A stretch of DNA of 64,000 nt from positions 62,001 through 126,000 of the forward strand of contig NZ_SLZL01000006.1 of the NCBI RefSeq assembly GCF_004342605.1, read 5' to 3'. A program made the translations under genes and the position numbers. Shown piece after piece: positions 3,096 through 21,976 of this stretch (position 1 is its first letter; every line of letters starts with the position of its first letter). This stretch comes from Caulobacter sp. BK020. Its GTDB lineage: Bacteria; Pseudomonadota; Alphaproteobacteria; Caulobacterales; Caulobacteraceae. The notes beneath the pieces were generated by a model. That model made no database searches. It saw only the letters and a list, made by a program, of their open reading frames with translations, and was not told the DNA's origin.

Positions 3096-3932
3096 CTAGC
3101 CCTTCTTGGCGTAGTAGGTCTCGGCCTCGCCGGGGAAGGTGCGAGCCTTGACGTCGCGGGCGTAGGCGGCGGCGGCGCGCTCGATCTCGCCCTTCAGGTC
3201 GGCATAGCGGCGCACGAACTTCGGCGCCCAGTCGAACAGGCCCAGCATGTCGTCGACCACTAGGATCTGGCCGTCGCAGCCGGCCGAGGCGCCGATGCCG
3301 ATGGTCGGGACCGAAATAGCCGCGGTCACGTCGCGCGCCAAGCCCTCGGCCACGCCCTCGACCACCACGGCGAAAGCCCCGGCCTCAGCCGTGGCGCGGG
3401 CCTCCACCAGCACCTTCTGGCGGCCTGCTTCGTCCTTGCCCTTGGCCTTGAAGCCGCCGTCGACCAGCACCGCCTGCGGCCGCAGACCGACATGGCCCAT
3501 GACCGGAATGCCGCGCTGCACGAGATAGGCGATGGTGGCCGGCACAGTGGGACCGCTCTCAACCTTCACCGCCTGGCAGCCCGTCTCCTTCATGATCCGC
3601 ACGGCGTTGGCGTAGGCGATCTCGGGCGCGCCTTCGTACGAGCCGAACGGCATGTCGACCACCACCATGGCCTTGCGCGAGCCGCGCATCACCGCCTGAC
3701 CGTGCAGGATCATCATCTCCAGGGTCACGCCGACGGTGTTGGGCAGGCCGTGGACGACCATCCCCAGCGAGTCGCCGACCAGCAGGAGGTCACAGGCCTC
3801 GTCCAGGGTCGCGGCGACCGGCGCAGTGTAGGCCGTCAGACAGACGATGGGTTCGCCGCCCTTGCGCGCGGCGATGTCGGGGGCCGCCAGGCGACGGACC
3901 TTCTCTTCACGATGAGCGGACAGGATCGGCAC
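3096..3932 (-). CDS. panB: 3-methyl-2-oxobutanoate hydroxymethyltransferase (ketopantoate hydroxymethyltransferase)
   Basis: PanB transfers a hydroxymethyl group from 5,10-methylene-THF to 2-oxoisovalerate to give ketopantoate, the first committed step of pantothenate and CoA synthesis. The 278-residue protein has family hallmarks: [18 protein letters not shown], the metal-binding [40 protein letters not shown] and the C-terminal [17 protein letters not shown] with DMLGL. The start used is a GTG at 3932; GGA lies directly against it, so spacing is poor and a start a few codons inside is possible. There is no panC next to it. The gene appears to stand alone. Confidence 0.95.
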
Positions 3933-11555: not shown

Positions 11556-12602
11556 ATGCACACGGCTCACGAGATGAGCGAATGGCCCACCTCTGGCTTG
11601 CACGAAGCCATCCTCGACACCGTCACCGCGAACGTGGCGATCCTGAACGCAAAGGGTGAGATCGTCGCGGTGAACGACGCCTGGGCGCATTTCGCCGCGT
11701 TCAACGCGCCGCCGCTGGAAAACCATGGGCTGGGCCTGAACTACGTCGCGTACTGCGACAGCCTGGGCGGGTCCGAGGCTTCCGAAGCGGCTGCTGGCCT
11801 CCGCGGCCTGCTCACGGGCGACCCAGGGCCCTTCCGCTACGAGTACCAGATGGACCTGGCCAGCGGCCCGCTGTGGGCCAGGATGATCGCCACGCGCATC
11901 TCCAGCAACGGCCAGACCCTGGTGATCGTGGCTCAGGAGGACATCACCGTTCAGCGCCACGCCCAGGCAGCCCTTGGACGCGCCACCGCCGCGCTGCTCC
12001 ATGCCGAGGACGACGAGCGCCGGCGAATCGCACGCGAGCTTCACGACGGAACGGCCCAGTACCTCACCGGCGCCAAGCTGATGCTGGGCGCGATGAAGGT
12101 CGAAGGCCGCGCCGAGAAGATCCGGGTCGAGATCGAGGCCTTGCTGGTCAACGCCTTGGAGGAGATCCGCAGCCTTTCCTACGTCATGCACCCTCCAGCC
12201 CTGGAAGAGACGGGCCTTGGCCCAGCGATCCGGCAGATGGCGGAAGGGTTCGCGCGGCGGACGGGACTGTCGCTGCAGATCGATATCGCCGACGACTTTC
12301 CGAAGATGGCGCGGCCGACCGAAGTGGCGCTGTATCGCGTCGCTCAGGAGGCGCTGGCCAATGTGCATCGCCATTCCGGCAGCCCGCGCGCCGCGATCGG
12401 TCTGCGTCTGGCCGGCGAAATGGTGCTGTTGTCGATCCGCGATTACGGCGTGGGCCTGCCGGACGCCGCCGCCGCGACCTCGGGCGTGGGCTTGGCGGGC
12501 ATGCGTCTACGGCTGGAATTCGTGAACGGCCACGTTTCCCTGACCAGCGCCTTTCCCGGCGTTCTGGTCGAAGCCTGGGCGCCATTCCAGCCCAAGGACT
12601 AG
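11556..12602 (+). CDS. PAS-containing NarL-partner type sensor histidine kinase (HisKA_3)
   Basis: 348 residues. A PAS domain at about 16-135 (ILDTVTANVAILNAKGEIVA to VIVAQEDITVQRHAQ) is followed by a HisKA_3 dimerisation box with the phospho-acceptor in DDERRRIARELHDGTAQYL. An HATPase_c domain follows (YRVAQEALANVHRHS, RDYGVGLPD, GVGLAGMRLRLE). There are no TM helices, so the signal is cytoplasmic. HisKA_3 kinases pair with NarL/LuxR regulators, but no response regulator gene is adjacent, making this an orphan here. It sits upstream of the nitrate-type uptake operon, which invites a nitrogen or redox role but does not prove it. Confidence 0.87.
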   Translation: MHTAHEMSEWPTSGLHEAILDTVTANVAILNAKGEIVAVNDAWAHFAAFNAPPLENHGLGLNYVAYCDSLGGSEASEAAAGLRGLLTGDPGPFRYEYQMDLASGPLWARMIATRISSNGQTLVIVAQEDITVQRHAQAALGRATAALLHAEDDERRRIARELHDGTAQYLTGAKLMLGAMKVEGRAEKIRVEIEALLVNALEEIRSLSYVMHPPALEETGLGPAIRQMAEGFARRTGLSLQIDIADDFPKMARPTEVALYRVAQEALANVHRHSGSPRAAIGLRLAGEMVLLSIRDYGVGLPDAAAATSGVGLAGMRLRLEFVNGHVSLTSAFPGVLVEAWAPFQPKD

Positions 12603-12779: not shown

Positions 12780-12867
12780 CGCGGGACAACGACGTTCCGC
12801 GATGGCCCGAGAGGGCCGCCCGGCGGCGATGCAGCCGCGTGGTACCGTTTGGACAACGACGTCCGGA
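12780..12867 (+). promoter_or_regulatory. ANTAR/NasT-responsive antiterminator RNA (two AACGAC hexaloop hairpins)
   Basis: Hairpin P1 has arms CGCGGGAC (12780-12787) and GTTCCGCG (12794-12801) around the loop AACGAC. Hairpin P2 has arms TTTGGAC (12848-12854) and GTCCGGA (12861-12867) around the same loop AACGAC. Both loops have A at position 1 and G at position 4, the known recognition pattern of ANTAR-domain proteins such as NasT and NasR. The 3' arm of P2 is also part of the terminator's 5' arm, so P2 and the terminator exclude each other. Binding of an ANTAR dimer should stabilise P2 and allow readthrough into the uptake genes. The 46-base linker between P1 and P2, with two extra hairpins, is longer than in the minimal motif. 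Confidence 0.85.
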
Positions 12868-12904
12868 GTGATCGCGAAAGCGGTCCCACCGGGCGTTTTT
12901 TTTT
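12859..12904 (+). terminator. Intrinsic terminator/attenuator ahead of the nitrate-type uptake operon
   Basis: The outer stem ACGTCCGG (12859-12866) pairs with CCGGGCGT (12889-12896). The inner stem GATCGC/GCGGTC (12870-12875, 12880-12885) closes on a GAAA tetraloop, and nine T residues (12896-12904) follow. It sits only 20 bases before the porin ATG, so unless overridden it would stop transcription before the first gene. It overlaps ANTAR hairpin P2. Confidence 0.88.
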
Positions 12905-12924: not shown

Positions 12925-14295
12925 ATGCCAAGCCTGCGAAAAATGCTGCTTTGCAGCACGACTTTCTGCGCCTTGATTCTGGGGGGCGCAGCCCATGCAC
13001 AGTCAGCACCGGAGCCCATTGCGACCCCTGACGAAGAGCCGCTCGCAGCCGCCGAACCGCCGCCTCCCCCGCCGCCGCCGCCAACCTTCAGCGACCAGGT
13101 CGCCGCCGGAAAACTGATTCTGGAAGTCCGGGCGCGCTACGAGAGCGTCGACCAGACCAAGACCGCCACCCTGAAGGACGACGCCTCGGCCTTCACGATC
13201 CGCACCCGCCTGGGCTGGGAGACCGCCGAGTTCCACGGCGTGAAGGGCCTGATCGAGTTCGAGGACGTCCGCCAGGCCGGACCCGAGCACTACGCCGTCA
13301 ACGTCCCGGGCGCCGCCACGCCCCCGCTGAACGGCGCCGACAAGGCCCGATATCCGATCGTCAACGACCCGGACGTCACCGAACTCAACCGCGCCCAGCT
13401 GACCTGGACGCCCAGCGCCGCCCTGCAGGTGGTCGCCGGTCGCCAGCGCATCCTGCTCGACGATCAACGCTTCGTCGGCAATGTCGGCTGGCGCCAGGAC
13501 GAGCAGACGTTCGACGCTCTCCGCACCGATGTCGCCTACGGCCGTTTCAAGGCGACCTACGCCTACATCTCGCACGTGAACCGCATCCTGGGCGAACTGC
13601 GCGACTGGGACAGCGACAGCCACCTGCTGAACGCCACCTGGTCGTCGGCCGAGGCCCTGCGCCTTCAAGGCTTCGTCTACGCGCTGGACTTCGGCAATTC
13701 GGCGGTCAATTCGTCGCTGACCAAGGGCGTCAAGGCCTCAGGCAAAACCTGGGTCGGCCTCTACCAGCTGGCCTACAACGCCACCTACGCCAAGCAGTCC
13801 GACTACCACCACAACACCCCCAACTTCGACCTGGCCTATTTCGGCGGCGACATCGCCGGGACCTTCGACATCTACACCGTCAAGGCCAGCTACGAGTCGC
13901 TGGAAGGCGACGGAACCCGCGGCTTCACCACGCCCCTGGCCACCGTCCACGCCTTCCAGGGCTGGGCCGACGCCTTCGTCTCGCCGGGCGGCAACAAGAG
14001 CTTCGTCGACGGGATCGAGGACGCCAATCTGAGCTTCAACGCCAAGCCCCGGTTCAAGCGGACCTACTTCTTCAACACCGACATCCTGGTCCGCTACCAC
14101 GACTTCAACGACCAGCGAACCGGCGCGGACCTTGGTCACGAATGGGACGTCGCCTTCGCCGCGGCCATCACGCCCAAGCTGTCGATCCAGCTGAAGTACG
14201 CCGACTTCCAGCGCGAAACGATCGTGCCCGCGGGCACGGCGACGCCGCCGGCCTCGCGAACCAAGGCCTGGTTCACCCTCGAATACAAACTCTGA
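12925..14295 (+). CDS. Alginate-export-type outer-membrane porin of the nitrate-type uptake operon
   Basis: 456 residues. The signal peptide ends near GGAAHAQ (residues 20-26), followed by a Pro-rich spacer and a long beta-barrel with alternating aromatic strands. Features include FTIRTRLGWETAEFHGVKGL, EDVRQAG, LQVVAGRQRILLDDQRFVGN, VGWRQDEQTFDALR and a C-terminal aromatic-rich strand ending EYKL. These match the Alginate_exp (AlgE-like) family. Such porins are often found next to uptake systems in Caulobacterales. As the first gene after the antiterminator leader it would give outer-membrane access for nitrate or a similar anion. The start has a GGGGGAT RBS. Confidence 0.85.
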   Translation: MPSLRKMLLCSTTFCALILGGAAHAQSAPEPIATPDEEPLAAAEPPPPPPPPPTFSDQVAAGKLILEVRARYESVDQTKTATLKDDASAFTIRTRLGWETAEFHGVKGLIEFEDVRQAGPEHYAVNVPGAATPPLNGADKARYPIVNDPDVTELNRAQLTWTPSAALQVVAGRQRILLDDQRFVGNVGWRQDEQTFDALRTDVAYGRFKATYAYISHVNRILGELRDWDSDSHLLNATWSSAEALRLQGFVYALDFGNSAVNSSLTKGVKASGKTWVGLYQLAYNATYAKQSDYHHNTPNFDLAYFGGDIAGTFDIYTVKASYESLEGDGTRGFTTPLATVHAFQGWADAFVSPGGNKSFVDGIEDANLSFNAKPRFKRTYFFNTDILVRYHDFNDQRTGADLGHEWDVAFAAAITPKLSIQLKYADFQRETIVPAGTATPPASRTKAWFTLEYKL

Positions 14296-14316: not shown

Positions 14317-15609
14317 ATGACCAAGACCCCTAAGACCGCCCCTGAGGCCGGCCTCACCCGCCGCCACGCCCTTGTCGGCGCGGCCGCCACAGTCGCCGCC
14401 GCCAAGGCCCTGTTCCCGGCCGGCGCTCACGCGGCCGGGGCCGGGCCTGAAGTGGCCAAGGCCCGCCTGGGCTTCATCGCCCTGACCGACTCCGCGCCGG
14501 TGATCATCGCCAAGGAGCGGGGCCTGTTCGCCAAGTATGGCCTGCCTGACATCGAGGTGGTCAAGCAGGCCTCCTGGGCCGCCACCCGCGACAACCTGGT
14601 GCTCGGTTCGGAGCGCGGGGGCATCGACGGCGCCCACATCCTGTCGCCCATGCCCTATCTGATGACCACGGGCGCAATCACCGGCGGCGCGCCGACGCCG
14701 ATGTACATCCTGGCCCGCCTCAACACCAACGGCCAGGCCATCTCGGTCGGCAACGACCTTAAGGCGGTCAAGGTCGGGCTCAACAGCGCCGGCGCCAAGG
14801 CCAAGTTCCAGCAGCTGAAGGCGGCCGGCAACATCGCCAAGGTCGCCATGACGTTCCGGGGCGGCACCCACGATCTGTGGGTTCGCTACTGGCTGGCGGC
14901 CGGCGGCATCAATCCAGAGACCGACGTCGCCACCATCGTCATCCCGCCGCCGCAGATGGTGGCCAACATGAAGGCCGGCACCCAGGACGCCTTCTGCGTG
15001 GGCGAGCCGTGGAACGGCCAGCTGGTCAACCAGCGTGTCGGTTACACGGCCTGCCTGACCTCCGAACTATGGATGAACCACCCCGAGAAGGCCCTGGGCA
15101 TGCGCGCCGCCTGGGTGGACAAGTATCCGCGCGCCGCTCAGGCCATCACCGCCGCCGTCCAGGAGGCGCAGCTTTGGTGCGACAAGGCTTCCAACCTACC
15201 GGCCATGTGCTCGATCGTCTCGGGCCGGCAGTACGTCAACGTGCCGATGAGCGACATCCTGCCCCGCCTGCAGGGCACGGTGGACTATGGCGACGGCCGC
15301 ACGCTGAAGAACTCGCCGCACCACATGAAGTTCTGGGCCGACAACGCCAGCTTCCCGTTCAAGTCGCACGACCTGTGGTTCCTGACCGAGGACATCCGCT
15401 GGGGCGTGCTGCCCCAGAAGACCAACACCAAGGCGCTGGTCGACAAGGTCAATCGTTCGGACATCTGGCGCGCGGCGGCCAAGACCATCGGCCAGACTGG
15501 CCCGGCCGGTGACAGCCGCGGCGTCGAGCGGTTCTTCGACGGCAAGGTGTTCGACCCGGCCAATCCGGGCGCGTACCTGGCCAGCCAGCCGATCAAGAAG
15601 CTGGTCTAG
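14317..15609 (+). CDS. nrtA: NrtA/CmpA-type ABC transporter substrate-binding protein (nitrate/nitrite)
   Basis: A 430-residue binding protein. The N-terminus, GLTRRHALVGAAATVAAAKA, carries a twin-arginine type signal as in many NrtA proteins. The mature part starts KARLGFIALTDSAPVIIAKE and contains DIEVVKQASWAATRDNLVLG, HILSPMPYLMTTGAITGG, FRGGTHDLWVRYWLAAGGI, FCVGEPWNGQLV and SHDLWFLTEDIRWG, all diagnostic of the nitrate/bicarbonate NrtA-CmpA family. Nitrate is preferred over bicarbonate because of the ANTAR leader and NtrC-like site. The permease gene begins 12 bases after its stop. Confidence 0.9.
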   Translation: MTKTPKTAPEAGLTRRHALVGAAATVAAAKALFPAGAHAAGAGPEVAKARLGFIALTDSAPVIIAKERGLFAKYGLPDIEVVKQASWAATRDNLVLGSERGGIDGAHILSPMPYLMTTGAITGGAPTPMYILARLNTNGQAISVGNDLKAVKVGLNSAGAKAKFQQLKAAGNIAKVAMTFRGGTHDLWVRYWLAAGGINPETDVATIVIPPPQMVANMKAGTQDAFCVGEPWNGQLVNQRVGYTACLTSELWMNHPEKALGMRAAWVDKYPRAAQAITAAVQEAQLWCDKASNLPAMCSIVSGRQYVNVPMSDILPRLQGTVDYGDGRTLKNSPHHMKFWADNASFPFKSHDLWFLTEDIRWGVLPQKTNTKALVDKVNRSDIWRAAAKTIGQTGPAGDSRGVERFFDGKVFDPANPGAYLASQPIKKLV

Positions 15610-15621
15610 GGAGACGTGCGC

Positions 15622-16512
15622 ATGACCTTCCCCAAGCCCTCCTTCTCGCCGGCCGAGCCCGTGGCGGCGCCGGTGATCGAACCGCCGGCCCCCGCGCCTC
15701 GCGCCTCGCACGGATCGGAGATCGTCCGCCGGGCGGGCGCGACGGCGGCGGCGGTGCTTCCGCCGCTGCTGACCGTCCTGGCGATCCTGGGTCTCTGGCA
15801 GGCGGCGATCGGCGACTCGTACGGCGGGCTGCCGTCGCCGGTCCAGGTGTGGACCGAGTCCAAGGACCTGATCCTCAACCCGTTCTTCGATCACGGCGGG
15901 GTCGACAAGGGCCTGTTCTGGCACGTCCTGACCAGCCTCAAGCGGGTCGGGGTCGGGTTCTCGATCTCGGCGGTCTGCGGGGTGATGCTGGGGGTGCTGA
16001 TCGGCTCCAACCGCTGGGCGCACCGGGGGTTGGACCCGATCTTCCAAGTGCTGCGCACCGTGCCGCCCCTGGCTTGGTTGCCGATCTCGCTGGCCGCTTT
16101 CCGCGAGGCCCAGCCCTCGGCCCTGTTCGTGATCTTCATCACCTCGATCTGGCCGATCATCATCAACACAGCCGTCGGCGTGCGCAACATTCCGGCCGAC
16201 TACGTGAATGTCGCCAAGGTGCTGCGGCTGTCGCCGGTCGAATACTTTTTCAAGATCCTGTTGCCAGCCACCACGCCTTACATCTTTACCGGTCTGCGCA
16301 TCGGCGTCGGCATGAGCTGGCTGGCCATCGTCGCTTCCGAGATGCTGCTGGGCGGCGTCGGCGTCGGGTTCTTCATCTGGGACCAGTACAACGCCTCGCG
16401 CATCTCCGACATCATCGTGGCCCTGGCCTGGGTCGGACTGACCGGCTTCTTCCTCGATCGCCTGGTGGCCCTGCTGGGTCACGTCATCTCGCGCGGCAAC
16501 GCGGCCAGCTAG
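15622..16512 (+). CDS. nrtB: NrtB-type ABC transporter permease
   Basis: About 296 residues, starting from the ATG at 15622, which has AGGGAGA 7 bases upstream; a GTG two codons earlier is possible. After a Pro/Ala-rich cytoplasmic tail there is a TM helix (LPPLLTVLAILGLWQAA), then the BPD_transp_1 domain with RVGVGFSISAVCGVMLGVLI, TVPPLAWLPISLAAF and the EAA-loop region PADYVNVAKVLRLSPVEYFF with LPATTPYIFTGLRIGVGMSW. It forms the inner-membrane channel for the NrtA substrate and follows the typical order binding protein, permease, ATPase. Confidence 0.9.
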   Translation: MTFPKPSFSPAEPVAAPVIEPPAPAPRASHGSEIVRRAGATAAAVLPPLLTVLAILGLWQAAIGDSYGGLPSPVQVWTESKDLILNPFFDHGGVDKGLFWHVLTSLKRVGVGFSISAVCGVMLGVLIGSNRWAHRGLDPIFQVLRTVPPLAWLPISLAAFREAQPSALFVIFITSIWPIIINTAVGVRNIPADYVNVAKVLRLSPVEYFFKILLPATTPYIFTGLRIGVGMSWLAIVASEMLLGGVGVGFFIWDQYNASRISDIIVALAWVGLTGFFLDRLVALLGHVISRGNAAS

Positions 16513-16525
16513 GAGACATCGCATC

Positions 16526-17311
16526 ATGGCCAAGGCCTATCTCTCCATCGAAGGCGTCGGCGTCACCTTCGCCAAGGGCGCCGCCCGCTCCGAGGTGCTC
16601 ACCGGCGTCGATCTGAAGGTCGACAAGGGCGAGTTCGTCTCGATAATCGGCCACTCGGGCTGCGGCAAGTCCACCTTGCTGAACGTGGTCGCCGGCCTTG
16701 TGCCGGTGACGACCGGCGCGGTGATCCTGGACAAGCAGGAGGTCAACGCCCCGGGGCCAGACCGGGCGGTGGTGTTCCAGAACCACTCGCTACTGCCCTG
16801 GCTGTCGGTGCGTGAGAACGTCTCGCTGGCGGTCGACAAGGTGTTCGGCAAGACCAAAACCGCCGCCGAGCGCCGCGACTGGACGCAGCACAATCTGGAG
16901 CTGGTCAAGATGACCCACGCCCTGGACAAGCGCCCCTCGGAAATCTCCGGCGGCATGAAGCAACGCGTCGGCATCGCCCGCGCCCTGGCCATGGAGCCCA
17001 AGGTCCTGCTGCTGGACGAGCCGTTCGGCGCCCTGGACGCCCTGACGCGCGCCCACCTGCAGGACAGCGTCATGGAGATCCACGCCAGTCTCAACAACAC
17101 GGTGCTGATGGTTACCCACGACGTCGACGAGGCCGCCCTGCTGTCGGACCGCATCGTGATGATGACCAACGGCCCGCGCGCCGCCATCGGCCAGGTGCTC
17201 GAGGTGGATCTGCCGCGCCCCCGCGATCGTCTCGCCGTCGCCGAGGATCCGACCTACATCCATGCCCGGGCGGCGGTGATCGAGTTCCTCTACGCCCGGC
17301 GCGCGGCCTGA
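16526..17311 (+). CDS. NrtC/NrtD-type ABC transporter ATPase
   Basis: 261 residues with Walker A GHSGCGKST, Q-loop VVFQNHSLLPWLSVRENV, signature SGGMKQRVGIARAL, Walker B KVLLLDEPFGALD and H-loop VMVTHDVDEAA. This is the nitrate/sulfonate/taurine ATPase subfamily. It is a single ATPase domain with no NrtA-like C-terminal extension, so it corresponds to NrtD or a short NrtC. RBS AGGAGA. It powers the upstream NrtB permease. No nitrate or nitrite reductase gene follows within the window, so the assimilatory enzymes must be elsewhere. Confidence 0.92.
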   Translation: MAKAYLSIEGVGVTFAKGAARSEVLTGVDLKVDKGEFVSIIGHSGCGKSTLLNVVAGLVPVTTGAVILDKQEVNAPGPDRAVVFQNHSLLPWLSVRENVSLAVDKVFGKTKTAAERRDWTQHNLELVKMTHALDKRPSEISGGMKQRVGIARALAMEPKVLLLDEPFGALDALTRAHLQDSVMEIHASLNNTVLMVTHDVDEAALLSDRIVMMTNGPRAAIGQVLEVDLPRPRDRLAVAEDPTYIHARAAVIEFLYARRAA

Positions 17312-17429: not shown

Positions 17430-20378
17430 TTGGCCGAACCCTCGCCAGCAGGAACCCAGGGATCGGACGCTGCGAGTCTGGCGCGACCTTCCAGCCCCGC
17501 GGCCGTCATATTGGTCGTCTTTGGCCTCATCGGCGGCCTGCTGCTGGCCAGCCAGCCCAGGACCTACCCCAACCTCCACACCATCCTCGACACCGGGGTG
17601 GCGCTGTTGTCGGGAATCCTGGCGCTGAAGCTGTGGGGCGCCGGCCAGCGCGAAGGCGACGATATCACCCGACGCCTCGCCCTTGTGTTTCTGGTGACCT
17701 GCGCCATGGAGGTGGTCCATGTCCTGGTGACCGTGGAGTGGTCGGGGGTCCTGGCCCCGATCAGGGCCTCCAGCGGGGTGCTGCGGCCGTCGACCTGGCC
17801 GCCGCCATCCCACCTGCTGCCCCTTGGCGTGATCGGCGCGCTGTTCTGGCCCGCGAGAAGCCGCTTCGGCCTGGCGACCTTCGCCTCGGCGATTCTGGCG
17901 ACCGCCATTGTGCTGTTCGCCATCTATCAACGTCTGCCGACCTATCTGCCGCCGGGTCCTCTAGGGATCACCCGGCCCACGCTGCTCCTGGCGCCGCTGC
18001 TCTGGATCGTGACGGGCCTGGTGGCATGGCGCCTGGCCGACCGCGACCGGGTCATCCGGGCGCTGCCGATGACCGCCGTCATTCTGGCTGTGGCCAACGC
18101 CCTGATCCTCTATTCCCGTTCTCCCGCCGACGCCCCGGCCATGGCCTCGCACCTGGGCAAGATGGCCGGCGACCTAACGCTGCTGTTCTTCTTGTTCCAG
18201 ACGGCGTCGCGCGATATGCGCGATCGGGTCCGCGTCGAGACCGCCCTGTCGAAGCTCAACGCCGAATTGGACCAGCGGGTGGCCGAGCGAACCGCTCAAC
18301 TGGAAGCCGAAACGCAAGCGCGCCAGCAGGGCCAACGCCTGCTGGAGGCCGTCGTCGAAAACTCTCCCGCCGTCATCTACGTCAAGGCCTTGGATGGCCG
18401 CTACCTGATGGTCAATCGCCGCTACTGCGACATCTTCCACATCGATCGCGACGCGATGATCGGGCGAACCGACCACGACATCTTTCCGATGGAGATCGCC
18501 GACGCCTTCCGCGCCATGGACGTGCGCGTCGCTGCGGCCGACCAGCCGCTGACCGAGGAAGAAAGCGCCCCGCACGACGATGGGCCTCACGCCTACATCT
18601 CGGTGAAATCCCCACTGCGCGACGAAACAGGCCAAGTCTACGCCGTGTTCGGCATCTCGACCGACATCACCGAGCGCAAGGACGCCGAAGCCAAGCTCCA
18701 TACCCAGTTGCAGCGAATGAGCCTGCTGGACGAGATCACGCGCGCCATCGGCGAGCGGCAGGACAACCAAAGCATCTTCCAGGTCGTTGTGCGGAGCATC
18801 GAGGACCAGCTGCCCGCCGACTTCGCCTGCCTTTGCCTCTACGACGACCTGGAGCGGGCCCTGACGGTCGCCGCCGTCGGGGTCAACAGCCAGGCCCTGG
18901 CCCTGGAGCTGGCCATGCCCGAGCGCGCGCGCGTCGACATCGACGAGAACGGCCTCTCCCAGTGCGTTCGGGGCCGCTTGGTCTACGAGTCGGACATCGC
19001 CGAGGTCCCCTTCCCGTTCCCGCGCCGGCTCGCCAACGGCGGCCTGGGGTCAATGGTCTGCGCGCCCCTGCAGGTCGAGAGCAAGGTGTTCGGCGTGCTG
19101 GTCGTGGCCCGCTTCCAGCCGAACGCCTTCGTCAGCGCCGAGTGCGAGTTCCTGCGCCAGCTGAGCGAGCACGTCGCCCTGGCCGCCCACCAGGCCCAGC
19201 TGCACAGCGCGCTCCAGGCGGCCTATGACGACCTGCGCCAGTCCCAGCAGGCGATCCTGCAACAGGAGCGGCTGAAGGCGCTGGGCCAGATGGCCAGCGG
19301 CATCGCCCACGACATCAACAACGCGCTGTCGCCCGTCTCGCTCTACACGGAAGCGATGATCGAGACCGAGCCGGGCCTCAGCCCCGCGGGGCGCGGCCAG
19401 CTGGAGATCATTCGCCGCGCCGTCGAGGACGTCGGCCAGACGATCGGCAAGATGCGCGAGTTCTACAGGCTGCGCGAAACCCAGCTGGAGACCGAACCGG
19501 TCCAACTGAACGAACTGGTCGCCCAGGTCCTGGAGCTCACTCGAGCGCGGTGGAACGACATGGCCATGCAGCGCGGCGTGGTCATCAAGGTGGAAACCGC
19601 CCTGGCCGACGATCTGCCGCCCGTGTTGGGCGTGGCCAGCGAGATCCGCGAAGCCCTGGTCAACCTGGTGTTCAACGCCATCGACGCCATGCCCGACGGC
19701 GGCCTCCTGGCGGTGAGCACCGCCAGGGTCGCCACGGACGTCGGCGACGCCGTGCGGGTCAGCGTGGCGGACAACGGAATCGGCATGGACGCAGAGGCGC
19801 GTCGGCGATGCCTTGAACCCTTCTTCACGACCAAGGGCGAGCGCGGCACGGGATTAGGCCTGGCGATGGTCTATGGAGTCGCGCAGCGACATGGCGCGGA
19901 GTTGGACGTCCAGTCCTCGCCCGGCGCCGGCGCGACGCTCTCCCTGACCTTCGCCCGGGCGGTAGACGAGAACGCCGCCCCGAACACGCCGCCGGCCGCT
20001 CCACGGCGACGGCTGCGCCTGCTGCTGGTGGACGACGATCCCGTGCTGCTCAAGGCCTTGAGCGACGCCCTGGAAAGCGACGGCCATGTCGTGACCATCG
20101 CCAACGGCGGCGGCGCGGGGATCGAAACCTTCGAGGCCAGCCAGGGCGGCGACCGCTTCGACGCCGTCTTCACCGACCTGGGCATGCCCTATATCGACGG
20201 TCGCCGCGTGGCGGCCGCGATCAAGGAGCTGTCGGCCAAGACGCCGGTGATCCTACTCACGGGCTGGGGCCAGGGACTGCTCGCCGACGACGACGTCCCG
20301 CCCCATATTGATCTGGTGCTGAGCAAACCGCCCAAGTTGCGAGAGCTCCGCGCGGCCCTCGCCCGTTTCACGACATGA
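17430..20378 (+). CDS. Membrane hybrid histidine kinase: TM sensor-PAS-GAF-HisKA-HATPase-receiver
   Basis: 982 residues from a TTG start with GGGGAG just upstream. About seven TM helices fill residues 25-265. A coiled-coil (ETALSKLNAELDQRVAERTA) leads into a PAS domain (VVENSPAVIYVKALDGRYLM to VFGISTDITERKDAE) and a GAF domain (IFQVVVRSIEDQLPADFACL onward). HisKA has LGQMASGIAHDINNALSPVS; HATPase has LVNLVFNAIDAMPDGG, DNGIGMD and GTGLGLAMVYG. The C-terminal receiver carries LLVDDDPVLL and phospho-acceptor FTDLGMPYIDG. The signal is unknown. The downstream kinase gene overlaps it (ATGA), so the two likely act as a pair. Confidence 0.9.
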   Translation: MAEPSPAGTQGSDAASLARPSSPAAVILVVFGLIGGLLLASQPRTYPNLHTILDTGVALLSGILALKLWGAGQREGDDITRRLALVFLVTCAMEVVHVLVTVEWSGVLAPIRASSGVLRPSTWPPPSHLLPLGVIGALFWPARSRFGLATFASAILATAIVLFAIYQRLPTYLPPGPLGITRPTLLLAPLLWIVTGLVAWRLADRDRVIRALPMTAVILAVANALILYSRSPADAPAMASHLGKMAGDLTLLFFLFQTASRDMRDRVRVETALSKLNAELDQRVAERTAQLEAETQARQQGQRLLEAVVENSPAVIYVKALDGRYLMVNRRYCDIFHIDRDAMIGRTDHDIFPMEIADAFRAMDVRVAAADQPLTEEESAPHDDGPHAYISVKSPLRDETGQVYAVFGISTDITERKDAEAKLHTQLQRMSLLDEITRAIGERQDNQSIFQVVVRSIEDQLPADFACLCLYDDLERALTVAAVGVNSQALALELAMPERARVDIDENGLSQCVRGRLVYESDIAEVPFPFPRRLANGGLGSMVCAPLQVESKVFGVLVVARFQPNAFVSAECEFLRQLSEHVALAAHQAQLHSALQAAYDDLRQSQQAILQQERLKALGQMASGIAHDINNALSPVSLYTEAMIETEPGLSPAGRGQLEIIRRAVEDVGQTIGKMREFYRLRETQLETEPVQLNELVAQVLELTRARWNDMAMQRGVVIKVETALADDLPPVLGVASEIREALVNLVFNAIDAMPDGGLLAVSTARVATDVGDAVRVSVADNGIGMDAEARRRCLEPFFTTKGERGTGLGLAMVYGVAQRHGAELDVQSSPGAGATLSLTFARAVDENAAPNTPPAAPRRRLRLLLVDDDPVLLKALSDALESDGHVVTIANGGGAGIETFEASQGGDRFDAVFTDLGMPYIDGRRVAAAIKELSAKTPVILLTGWGQGLLADDDVPPHIDLVLSKPPKLRELRAALARFTT

Positions 20379-21976
20379 GCCGCCCCATGATCGAACCGCA
20401 CACGCAGCCCGACGACGATCGACGGACGCGCATCCTGATCGTCGACGACGAGGCGGCAAACCTCCAGGCCCTTCGCGTAACGCTGGGTGGTCAGGGCTTC
20501 GACGTCACCGGCTTCACCCATCCGGACGAGGCGCTGGAGGCCATCACCCCCGGCGCGTTCGACGTGCTGCTGACCGACCTGAAGATGCCGTCGACCACCG
20601 GCGTCGAGCTGCTGCAGAGAGCCCACGAGCGCGACCCTCACCTTTCAGGCGTCATCATGACCGGCGAAGGCTCGATCGCCTCGGCGGTGGAATCGATGCG
20701 CAGCGGCGCCGTCGACTATGTCCTCAAGCCGCTCAAGCTCAGCAACCTGCTGCCCGTCCTGGCCAGCGCGCGCACCCTAGGCCGGCTGCGGCGCGAGAAC
20801 GACCAGCTGGAACAGAGCGTGCGTGCGCGCACCGCGGAGCTGGAGCGAGCGCTTGAGGAGGTCGACCACCACGCGGCCGAACTTATCAAGGCCGAACAGG
20901 CGCTGATGCAGGCCCAGAAGATTGAGGCCATCGGCCGTCTTACCGGCGGCGTCGCCCACGACTTCAACAATCTGCTCGCCGCGGTGATCGGCAATCTGGA
21001 ACTGCTGCAGCGTAAGCTTCCGCCCGAGGCCCAGCCGTGCCGACGGTTTGTCGACAACGCCCTCGAAGCGGCCAATCGCGGCGCCAAGGTCACCGGCCAG
21101 CTCCTGGCGTTTTCCCGGACCCAGCGGCTGCGCCTGGAGCCGCTGGAGGTCGACGCGACCTTGCGGCGCAGCGACCCGCTCCTGCGCCAGGCGCTTGGTC
21201 CGGGCGTCGATCTCGAGGTGTGCCTTGAGGCCGAAGGCGCCTGGGCCAGCACCGACGCCACGCAACTGGAACTGGTCGCGCTGAACCTCATCGTCAATGC
21301 GCGCGAGGCCTTGCCAGACGGCGGCGTGGTGCGCCTGAGCACACGCCTCGAACCTGACCGGATCGTCCTTGAAGTCGCCGACACCGGCGTTGGCATGACG
21401 CCGGAGGTTCTGGCGCGCGCCACGGAGCCCTTCTTCACCACCCGGGCCGGCTCCGGAACCGGTCTGGGCCTGGCTCAGGTCCATGGTTTCGCGCGCCAGT
21501 GCGGCGGTGATTGCCAGATCGAAAGCGCTCCGGGCGCGGGAACGCGGGTCGGTGTTTCACTACCGCGAATCGAGCCCCCCGCCGTGCGTGTCGAAGCGCC
21601 GCCGGAGCCGGTTACGACGCAGCGAGACGGCCTTCGGGTGCTGGTCGTCGACGATGACCGCCATGTCCGCGAAAGCCTTTGCGAGGCCTTGGCCAGCGAG
21701 GGTTTCCTGGTGCGCTGGGCGTCGGACGGTGCTTCGGGACTGGCCCAGCTGGAGATCGAGACGCCGGACGCCGTGGTGCTGGACTATGCGATGCCCGGCA
21801 TGACCGGCGCCGAAGTCGCCCGCCGCGCCCAGGCCGCGCATCCGCATCTCCCGATCGTCTTCCTGAGCGGCTACGCGGACTCCCTCGCCCTGGACCAGAT
21901 CGAGGCCGCCGCCGTCCTGCGCAAGCCGATCGCCATCGCCGACCTCAGCCGCGCGCTGCGTCTGGCGGCGGGTTAG
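20375..21976 (+). CDS. Cytoplasmic hybrid kinase: receiver-coiled coil-HisKA-HATPase-receiver
   Basis: 533 residues. The N-terminal receiver (RILIVDDEAANLQALRVTLG, DVLLTDLKMPSTTGVELL, DYVLKPLKL) is followed by a coiled coil, HisKA (IGRLTGGVAHDFNNLLAAVI), HATPase (LNLIVNAREALPDGG, ADTGVGM, GSGTGLGLAQVHGFARQ) and a second receiver (RVLVVDDDRHVRESLCEALA, AVVLDYAMPGMTGAEV). It has no TM segment and no DNA-binding output. With receivers at both ends it suits an intermediate relay node fed by the membrane kinase encoded just upstream. The final target (a phosphotransfer protein such as a ChpT-like one, or a response regulator) is not in this window. Confidence 0.9.
   Translation: MSRPMIEPHTQPDDDRRTRILIVDDEAANLQALRVTLGGQGFDVTGFTHPDEALEAITPGAFDVLLTDLKMPSTTGVELLQRAHERDPHLSGVIMTGEGSIASAVESMRSGAVDYVLKPLKLSNLLPVLASARTLGRLRRENDQLEQSVRARTAELERALEEVDHHAAELIKAEQALMQAQKIEAIGRLTGGVAHDFNNLLAAVIGNLELLQRKLPPEAQPCRRFVDNALEAANRGAKVTGQLLAFSRTQRLRLEPLEVDATLRRSDPLLRQALGPGVDLEVCLEAEGAWASTDATQLELVALNLIVNAREALPDGGVVRLSTRLEPDRIVLEVADTGVGMTPEVLARATEPFFTTRAGSGTGLGLAQVHGFARQCGGDCQIESAPGAGTRVGVSLPRIEPPAVRVEAPPEPVTTQRDGLRVLVVDDDRHVRESLCEALASEGFLVRWASDGASGLAQLEIETPDAVVLDYAMPGMTGAEVARRAQAAHPHLPIVFLSGYADSLALDQIEAAAVLRKPIAIADLSRALRLAAG

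Follow-up and report, generated by a model that had tools for sequence, protein, structure and literature searches.

A putative ANTAR-type antiterminator leader with a long two-hairpin linker before a porin and nitrate transporter operon in Caulobacteraceae

Introduction

How is an operon that sets an outer-membrane channel before a nitrate-type ABC transporter switched on, and how would an ANTAR protein read two RNA loops with a long linker between them? Both questions are raised by the window analysed here, a 64-kb stretch of the genome of Caulobacter sp. BK020, in which the original prediction had placed an ANTAR-type antiterminator leader ahead of a porin/ABC operon. Current ANTAR models give a central place to close spacing of the two hexaloops, and the linker in the window is about four times longer and carries two conserved hairpins. 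We have followed the leader through its porin-linked relatives and through the genomes of its family and class.

Methods

Pair scan. Both strands of the window were scanned for two hairpins with AA.G.. loops, each with a stem of 5 bp or more, that were separated by less than 120 bases.

Architecture scan. The best 80 porin-relative loci listed were used as relatives; one (L059) is without upstream DNA, so 79 were scanned. The scan calls for a P1 of at least 5 bp, a P2 of at least 4 bp, A1 and G4 in both loops and an overlapping terminator with at least five Ts. It ignores the letters of the P2 core but requires the A1/G4 hexaloops and the overlapping terminator.

Motif search and alignment. 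This search required A1/G4, six paired P1 bases and the P2 core, and these three features are therefore not evidence in the rows that it yielded. A P1/P2 pair was found at 51 of the best 80 loci listed, which with the window makes 52 rows, 44 of which were aligned. L027 was left out as a duplicate, and a doubtful P1 or a short or dissimilar linker excluded L036, L042, L050, L051, L052, L054 and L063; at L051 the P1 picked by the search is probably wrong.

Covariance model. The model R1 was built from the porin leaders, and its strict filters lose weak matches.

Results

Leader anatomy. The features are collected in Table 1. P1 reads CGCGGGAC-AACGAC-GTTCCGCG and P2 reads TTTGGAC-AACGAC-GTCCGGA, the latter with 7 bp, two of them G-U; direct reading thus confirms the coordinates and letters of the two predicted hairpins of 8 and 7 bp with identical AACGAC loops. 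The claim that the 3′ arm of P2 overlaps a terminator with nine Ts, 20 bases before the first ORF, also holds, on reading and predicted fold together: the whole arm (12861-12867) and G4 of the P2 loop lie inside the predicted terminator stem, and the distance from the end of the T-run to the porin ATG at 12925 is 20 bases. The leader has two features of ANTAR RNAs: two hexaloop hairpins with A1 and G4, and a P2 that shares sequence with the 5′ arm of the predicted terminator. The 46-nt linker between P1 and P2 is filled by two further hairpins, La and Lb, outside of which 9 nt are left unpaired in the predicted fold.

Table 1. Positions of the leader elements and operon genes in the window, and of nasT and nasS on contig L082
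Feature	Position	Strand	Remarks
P1 hairpin	12780..12801	+	8 bp, one G-U; hexaloop AACGAC 12788-12793
Linker hairpin La	12804..12817	+	5 bp; single-sequence folds
Linker hairpin Lb	12818..12843	+	interrupted stem; single-sequence folds
P2 hairpin (antiterminator)	12848..12867	+	hexaloop AACGAC 12855-12860
Intrinsic terminator	12858..12904	+	predicted stem 12858-12897, T9 12896-12904
Outer-membrane channel (porin)	12925..14295	+	PF13372 36.8 bits; signal peptide-like start
NrtA-like substrate-binding protein	14317..15609	+	PF13379 328.5 bits
Nitrate ABC transporter permease (NrtB)	15616..16512	+	TIGR01183 320.8 bits, cut-off 209.05
Nitrate ABC transporter ATPase (NrtC/D)	16526..17311	+	TIGR01184 347.3 bits, cut-off 291.8
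nasT	L082:8624-9373		PF03861 71.9 bits, C-terminal ANTAR
nasS, NrtA-like	L082:9370-10509		PF13379 271.5 bits

The fold is more stable than those of shuffled leaders (z −3.10; 2 of 200 shuffles equally good), and this pair of AA.G hexaloop hairpins is the only one that the pair scan found on either strand of the window. Rfam 15 gave no window match at the gathering score, and at E up to 10 the leader alone gave only below-threshold, chance-like matches. Upstream of P1, column frequencies in 41 leaders pick out T at −47 and, at −21 to −19, CCT, all counted from the loop. Visual inspection of some relatives had suggested a sigma-54 site, an idea abandoned because the window is without its GG.

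Predicted folding path. When prefixes of growing length were folded, P2 was present in the best fold at 90, 95, 100, 105 and 110 nt and absent at 115 nt, and the terminator was in place by 118 nt; P2 and the terminator are mutually exclusive in these predicted folds. Forcing P2 gives a best energy of −64.2 against −66.5 kcal/mol for the free fold, a cost of 2.3 kcal/mol, so a modest binding energy could shift the balance. Because G4 of the P2 loop falls within the terminator stem, a base required by ANTAR proteins would be hidden once the terminator has formed. The predicted switching is that of the ANTAR scheme described in PMC3369931, PMC3369936 and PMC8934654.

Operon. The label 'nitrate-type' given to the operon is upheld by NCBIfam matches of the permease and the ATPase above their cut-offs and by gene order in relatives, where nasT-nasS-leader-porin and leader-porin-nrtABC-nasT-nasS both occur. 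The binding protein matches only SsuA_fam in NCBIfam, below the cut-off, and broad families otherwise. An AlphaFold model of the porin, with 33 aligned relatives, has 18 strands (mean pLDDT 80.1, pTM 0.76). Its best Foldseek matches are channels of the Occ/OprD type, with AlgE lower; by sequence, the PDB offers one match (E 0.46). The barrel is settled by the fold search.

Directly upstream (11556-12602) lies a HisKA_3 sensor kinase with distant similarity, below cut-offs, to the NarX/NarQ type, which among the best 80 loci listed recurs at L002 only. After the operon (17430-21976) come genes for two hybrid histidine kinases, with a four-base overlap between them.

Conservation. The full architecture stands upstream of 51 of the 79 porin relatives scanned from the best 80 loci listed: 39 of 42 at porin identities of at least 60%, 8 of 14 at 45–60% and 4 of 23 below 45%. 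It was found in none of 395 dinucleotide shuffles of the relatives' upstream regions and in none of 77 downstream control stretches. The 28 loci at which the scan found no leader mostly have porins below 45% identity. Three scan misses are at identities of at least 60%: L041 has both hairpins and a terminator that failed the scan's test, while L028 and L040 each carry one loop that begins with G. L044 likewise has G1 in one loop, and P1 of L046 is only 4 bp.

L028, L040, L044 and L046, missed by scan or motif and read by eye, bear on the expectation that orthologous leaders would retain A1/G4 loops, since selection had not imposed these bases on them: G4 is kept in all four, but A1 is replaced by G in one loop each of three, unlike EutV, for which A1 is a requirement (PMC3369931). 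A C-G pair closes P1 in 51 of 51 tallied rows; the C-G pair closing P2 was a selection criterion. Across the 52 rows the spacing between the loops varies from 26, in L036 and the doubtful L051, up to 73.

At six Caulobacter loci (L018, L019, L021, L023, L024 and L038) a second porin, about 60% identical, stands in tandem before the leader, near 3323-3504. This copy was considered as a bearer of the same leader and ruled out, as neither a P2 motif nor a run of six Ts occurs within 700 bases before it; the leader therefore belongs to the nrt-linked copy.

Covariation. In the 44 aligned leaders, chosen for at least six inner P1 pairs, 97.4% of P1 cells are paired and four of the eight pairs have changed on both sides. 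For the terminator the count is 11 of 16 pairs, with a covariation score of 0.306 against 0.135 when shuffled. La and Lb were followed in 34 leaders. La is paired in 77.5% of cells with two-sided changes in four of five pairs, and the consensus helix of Lb in 85.2% with two-sided changes in six of seven pairs and in the innermost pair besides. Taken together, 11 of their 13 pairs show two-sided changes, with a covariation score of 0.241 (0.122 shuffled, at most 0.108 when slid); RNAalifold on the 44 leaders did not recover La or Lb, so the columns behind this covariation are those that single-sequence folds had indicated. The general core of P2 is its inner 4 bp, which do not vary in the 44 leaders but were used to choose them, so that P2 gives no evidence of covariation; its three outer pairs fail to form in 13, 21 and 23 of the 44 leaders. 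Of the covariation to be looked for in P1 and P2, that of P1 was found, and the terminator, La and Lb covary as well.

Linker. Measured to the 4-bp P2 core, linkers in the 44 leaders are 31–55 nt long (median 47). Exactly two helices form in 39 of them, compared with 37.5% of shuffles, and the folding z drops under −2 for 39 of the 44 (mean −3.0). The median of 10 unpaired linker nucleotides compares with 7.3 ± 4.3 in shuffles, which leave fewer, so it is only stability and the two-hairpin form that exceed chance, not a low unpaired count. At L036:4864-4951, in a Phenylobacterium metagenome assembly with the order nasT-nasS-leader-porin-nrtABC-narK, the leader has neither linker hairpin, its linker measures 8 nt and the terminator is intact. 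A leader without the two hairpins yet with a linker this short suggests that La and Lb merely bridge distance.

ANTAR-RNA linkers are called 'variable' in the 2012 definition (PMC3369931) and limited to 2–25 nt in a later actinobacterial curation (PMC8164766). The 46 nt of the window fall within the former wording and above the latter rule, and on the latter ground the leader is classed as a variant. The two-helix folds and the covariation show that the variant architecture first proposed, a long linker with two extra hairpins, is real and conserved. In eut leaders the linker is 5–12 nt; a 14-nt linker drastically reduced induction and a 20-nt extension abolished EutV antitermination in vitro (PMC3369931, PMC8934654).

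Regulator. The source genome (47 contigs) has one ANTAR match (74.5 bits), on a different contig from the leader. This is the nasT whose presence had been predicted, a single ANTAR gene in a nitrate/nitrite assimilation cluster with the order nasT, nasS, NarK-type transporter, NirB-like, nitrate reductase-like and uroporphyrinogen-III methyltransferase. Both marks of a NasS-NasT system are present: an NrtA-like NasS gene adjoining nasT along with nitrate/nitrite reductase genes, and a nasT product with a receiver-like N-part and a C-terminal ANTAR domain. NasT has no Pfam receiver match; phmmer alignments to Rv1626 and EutV span both its receiver-like part and its ANTAR domain, and it also aligns to NasR and AmiR chains. 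Its M, D, G and P align with M, N, R and R, the RNA contacts given for EutV in PMC8934654.

R1 matches occur in 23 of 149 Caulobacteraceae genomes, the source genome included (26 matches in total), and an ANTAR protein in 53, one each. Leader and ANTAR protein are both present in 21 genomes, 2 have the leader only, 32 the ANTAR protein only and 94 neither (Fisher p 2.4e-9, an optimistic value because the genomes are related). The leader-only genomes are G053 (80% complete; the contig begins at nasS) and G018 (L135; 99% complete). Of the 26 matches, 21 precede a porin and 4 narK, and the last, in G019, precedes a different ORF within a nas cluster; matches before porins are partly expected, as the model was built from porin leaders, and only the narK and G019 matches differ in kind from those leaders.

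Other nitrate-gene leaders. A candidate leader precedes narK in the source genome (L082:10672-10756; R1 28.2 bits, E 7.6e-4 in 104 kb). Its P2 is a clean GGAC-AACGGC-GTCC hairpin, its P1 is bulged with loop AATGCA, 63 bases upstream of the P2 hairpin, and no T-run was found in it; it makes a weaker, and perhaps a different, target. An R1 match at L084:14847 (19.6 bits, E 0.034) is weak and was treated as chance. L108 keeps the same P2 as the narK leader, without a clear P1. In G019 a 354-aa ORF (L137:380-1444, minus strand) with a secretion-signal-like start stands where the porin would be, between nasS and narK; it has no Pfam match, and it has its own leader of the four-hairpin type, followed by a second leader and narK.

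Across 240 genomes of the class, R1 matched the source genome alone, and NasT was found at E 1e-25 or better in 30. The 29 others among these have 30 nasT loci, and at 14 of those loci a candidate leader pair lies in the gap behind nasT or nasS, with loop spacings of 18–81, a count that carries no shuffled control and includes two loci with two choices of P1; on these spacings, medium and long distances are not confined to Caulobacteraceae. The porin lies beside nasTS at 4 of the 30 loci (L157, L159, L163 and L164), in other alphaproteobacteria, so linkage to the porin extends beyond leaders of the four-hairpin form. L159 and L163 resemble the window in having an ANTAR-like pair before a porin relative and behind nasTS, but differ from it in their loop spacing of 21, a different P2 core and the lack of an R1 match.

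Discussion

Anatomy, conservation, covariation and linkage to nasTS all support the ANTAR-type antiterminator first proposed, and we consider it very probable that the leader controls the porin-nrtABC operon in this way and is worked by NasT. NasS-NasT control, RNA binding and readthrough at this leader are inferred from known systems; in Paracoccus, NasT binds the nasA leader and nitrate releases NasT from NasS (PMC3795266). By analogy, in the absence of nitrate NasS would keep NasT bound, and the growing RNA would make P1 and a transient P2, which the terminator would then displace, ending transcription before the porin. With nitrate or nitrite present, freed NasT would bind the hexaloops, trap P2 and block terminator formation, so that channel, binding protein, permease and ATPase would be produced together. 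The nitrate response of the operon and the cargo of the porin belong to the same inference.

In favour of NasT, the leader co-occurs with an ANTAR protein and is linked to nasTS and nitrate genes. Several observations point the other way. The NasT residues aligned with the EutV contacts N, R and R are D, G and P; 28 of 79 porin loci are leaderless by scan, while G053 and G018 have a leader and no ANTAR match; and the narK leader of the source genome has a bulged P1 and no T-run. In Bradyrhizobium, narK is reported to bear the hairpin and nevertheless to have risen when nasT was deleted (PMC6759348), and mutation of the second hairpin in Paracoccus is reported to have had little effect with nitrate (PMC5424462). 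Were the leader instead a terminator-attenuator that answers to no factor or to another one, of which a small RNA, Rho or translation would be examples, its hexaloops would be coincidental. The absence of an Rfam match would suit such a leader, and no direct evidence for one was found; two conserved A1/G4 loops, the invariant C-G pair closing P1, the physical linkage to nasTS and the co-occurrence with ANTAR make it very improbable. We regard it as equally far-fetched that a genuine ANTAR leader here serves the transport of a cargo that is neither nitrate nor nitrite but, for example, cyanate or a sulfonate. The broad-family matches of the binding protein would allow this, but permease and ATPase score above nitrate-specific cut-offs, in many relatives the operon has nasTS and narK as neighbours, and nrtABD of C. 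crescentus is described as nitrate transport (PMC8552747).

Within the NasT-switch reading, two roles of the linker come into question. La and Lb may fold most of the linker away, leaving P1 and P2 as close as in short-linker leaders, since only 9 nt would remain unpaired; we put this at about an even chance. Alternatively, the same NasT switch may operate with the linker hairpins as a mere spacer, the loops being visited in turn, or P1 only recruiting, so that distance is irrelevant, a view we hold to be possible at slightly less than an even chance. Distance tolerance is favoured by the wide range of spacings in other genera (the 14 loci noted above, counted without a shuffled control), by the range of 26–73 in loci of the Caulobacterales type, by Paracoccus hairpins placed 137 and 91 bp before nasA (PMC5424462), and by the successive-binding model proposed for EutV (PMC8934654). 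Compaction is favoured by L036, which lost both linker hairpins and kept 8 nt, and by the covariation of La and Lb and their two-helix form, which a neutral spacer would not need; the intolerance of EutV leaders to longer linkers also argues against a mere spacer. Against compaction stand the unpaired count, which shuffled linkers bring lower still, and the failure of RNAalifold to recover La and Lb. Our fullest reading, to which we commit only tentatively and which falls a little short of an even bet, is that the Caulobacteraceae hold a four-hairpin class of ANTAR RNA in which the La/Lb scaffold meets the spacing rule in space rather than in sequence, and that NasT controls the uptake of nitrate starting at the outer membrane, one switch serving different outer-membrane proteins.

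The long structured linker and the short L036 form make it directly testable how an ANTAR dimer reads two loops. Leaders such as that of the window would escape searches that limit linkers to 25 nt. An outer-membrane channel under a nitrate sensor suggests a dedicated entry route for nitrate or nitrite in organisms of poor water; no report of a porin under an ANTAR leader was found in the open-licence literature searched.

The switch itself is of a known kind, and the new part is the conserved, structured 46-nt linker. With the reference ANTAR RNAs, the eutP-type leaders of EutV in Enterococcus faecalis, as described in PMC3369931 and PMC8934654, the leader shares dual A1/G4 hexaloops, a C-G closing pair of the required type and the overlap of P2 with the terminator. 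It differs from them in its 46 nt with two hairpins, where theirs are short and lengthening is not tolerated, and in its input, theirs being an ethanolamine two-component system. The NasT leaders of Paracoccus denitrificans nasA and Bradyrhizobium diazoefficiens nosR have in common with it NasS-NasT, nitrate genes, a hairpin leader and antitermination (PMC3795266, PMC5424462, PMC6759348), a likeness by description rather than by letters; the gene that comes first behind them encodes a reductase or is nosR, where the window has an outer-membrane channel. The nasF leader of Klebsiella oxytoca shares nitrate-induced ANTAR antitermination and A1/G4 loops (PMC3369936), but its NasR joins sensor and antiterminator in one NIT-ANTAR protein, unlike the separate NasS and NasT.
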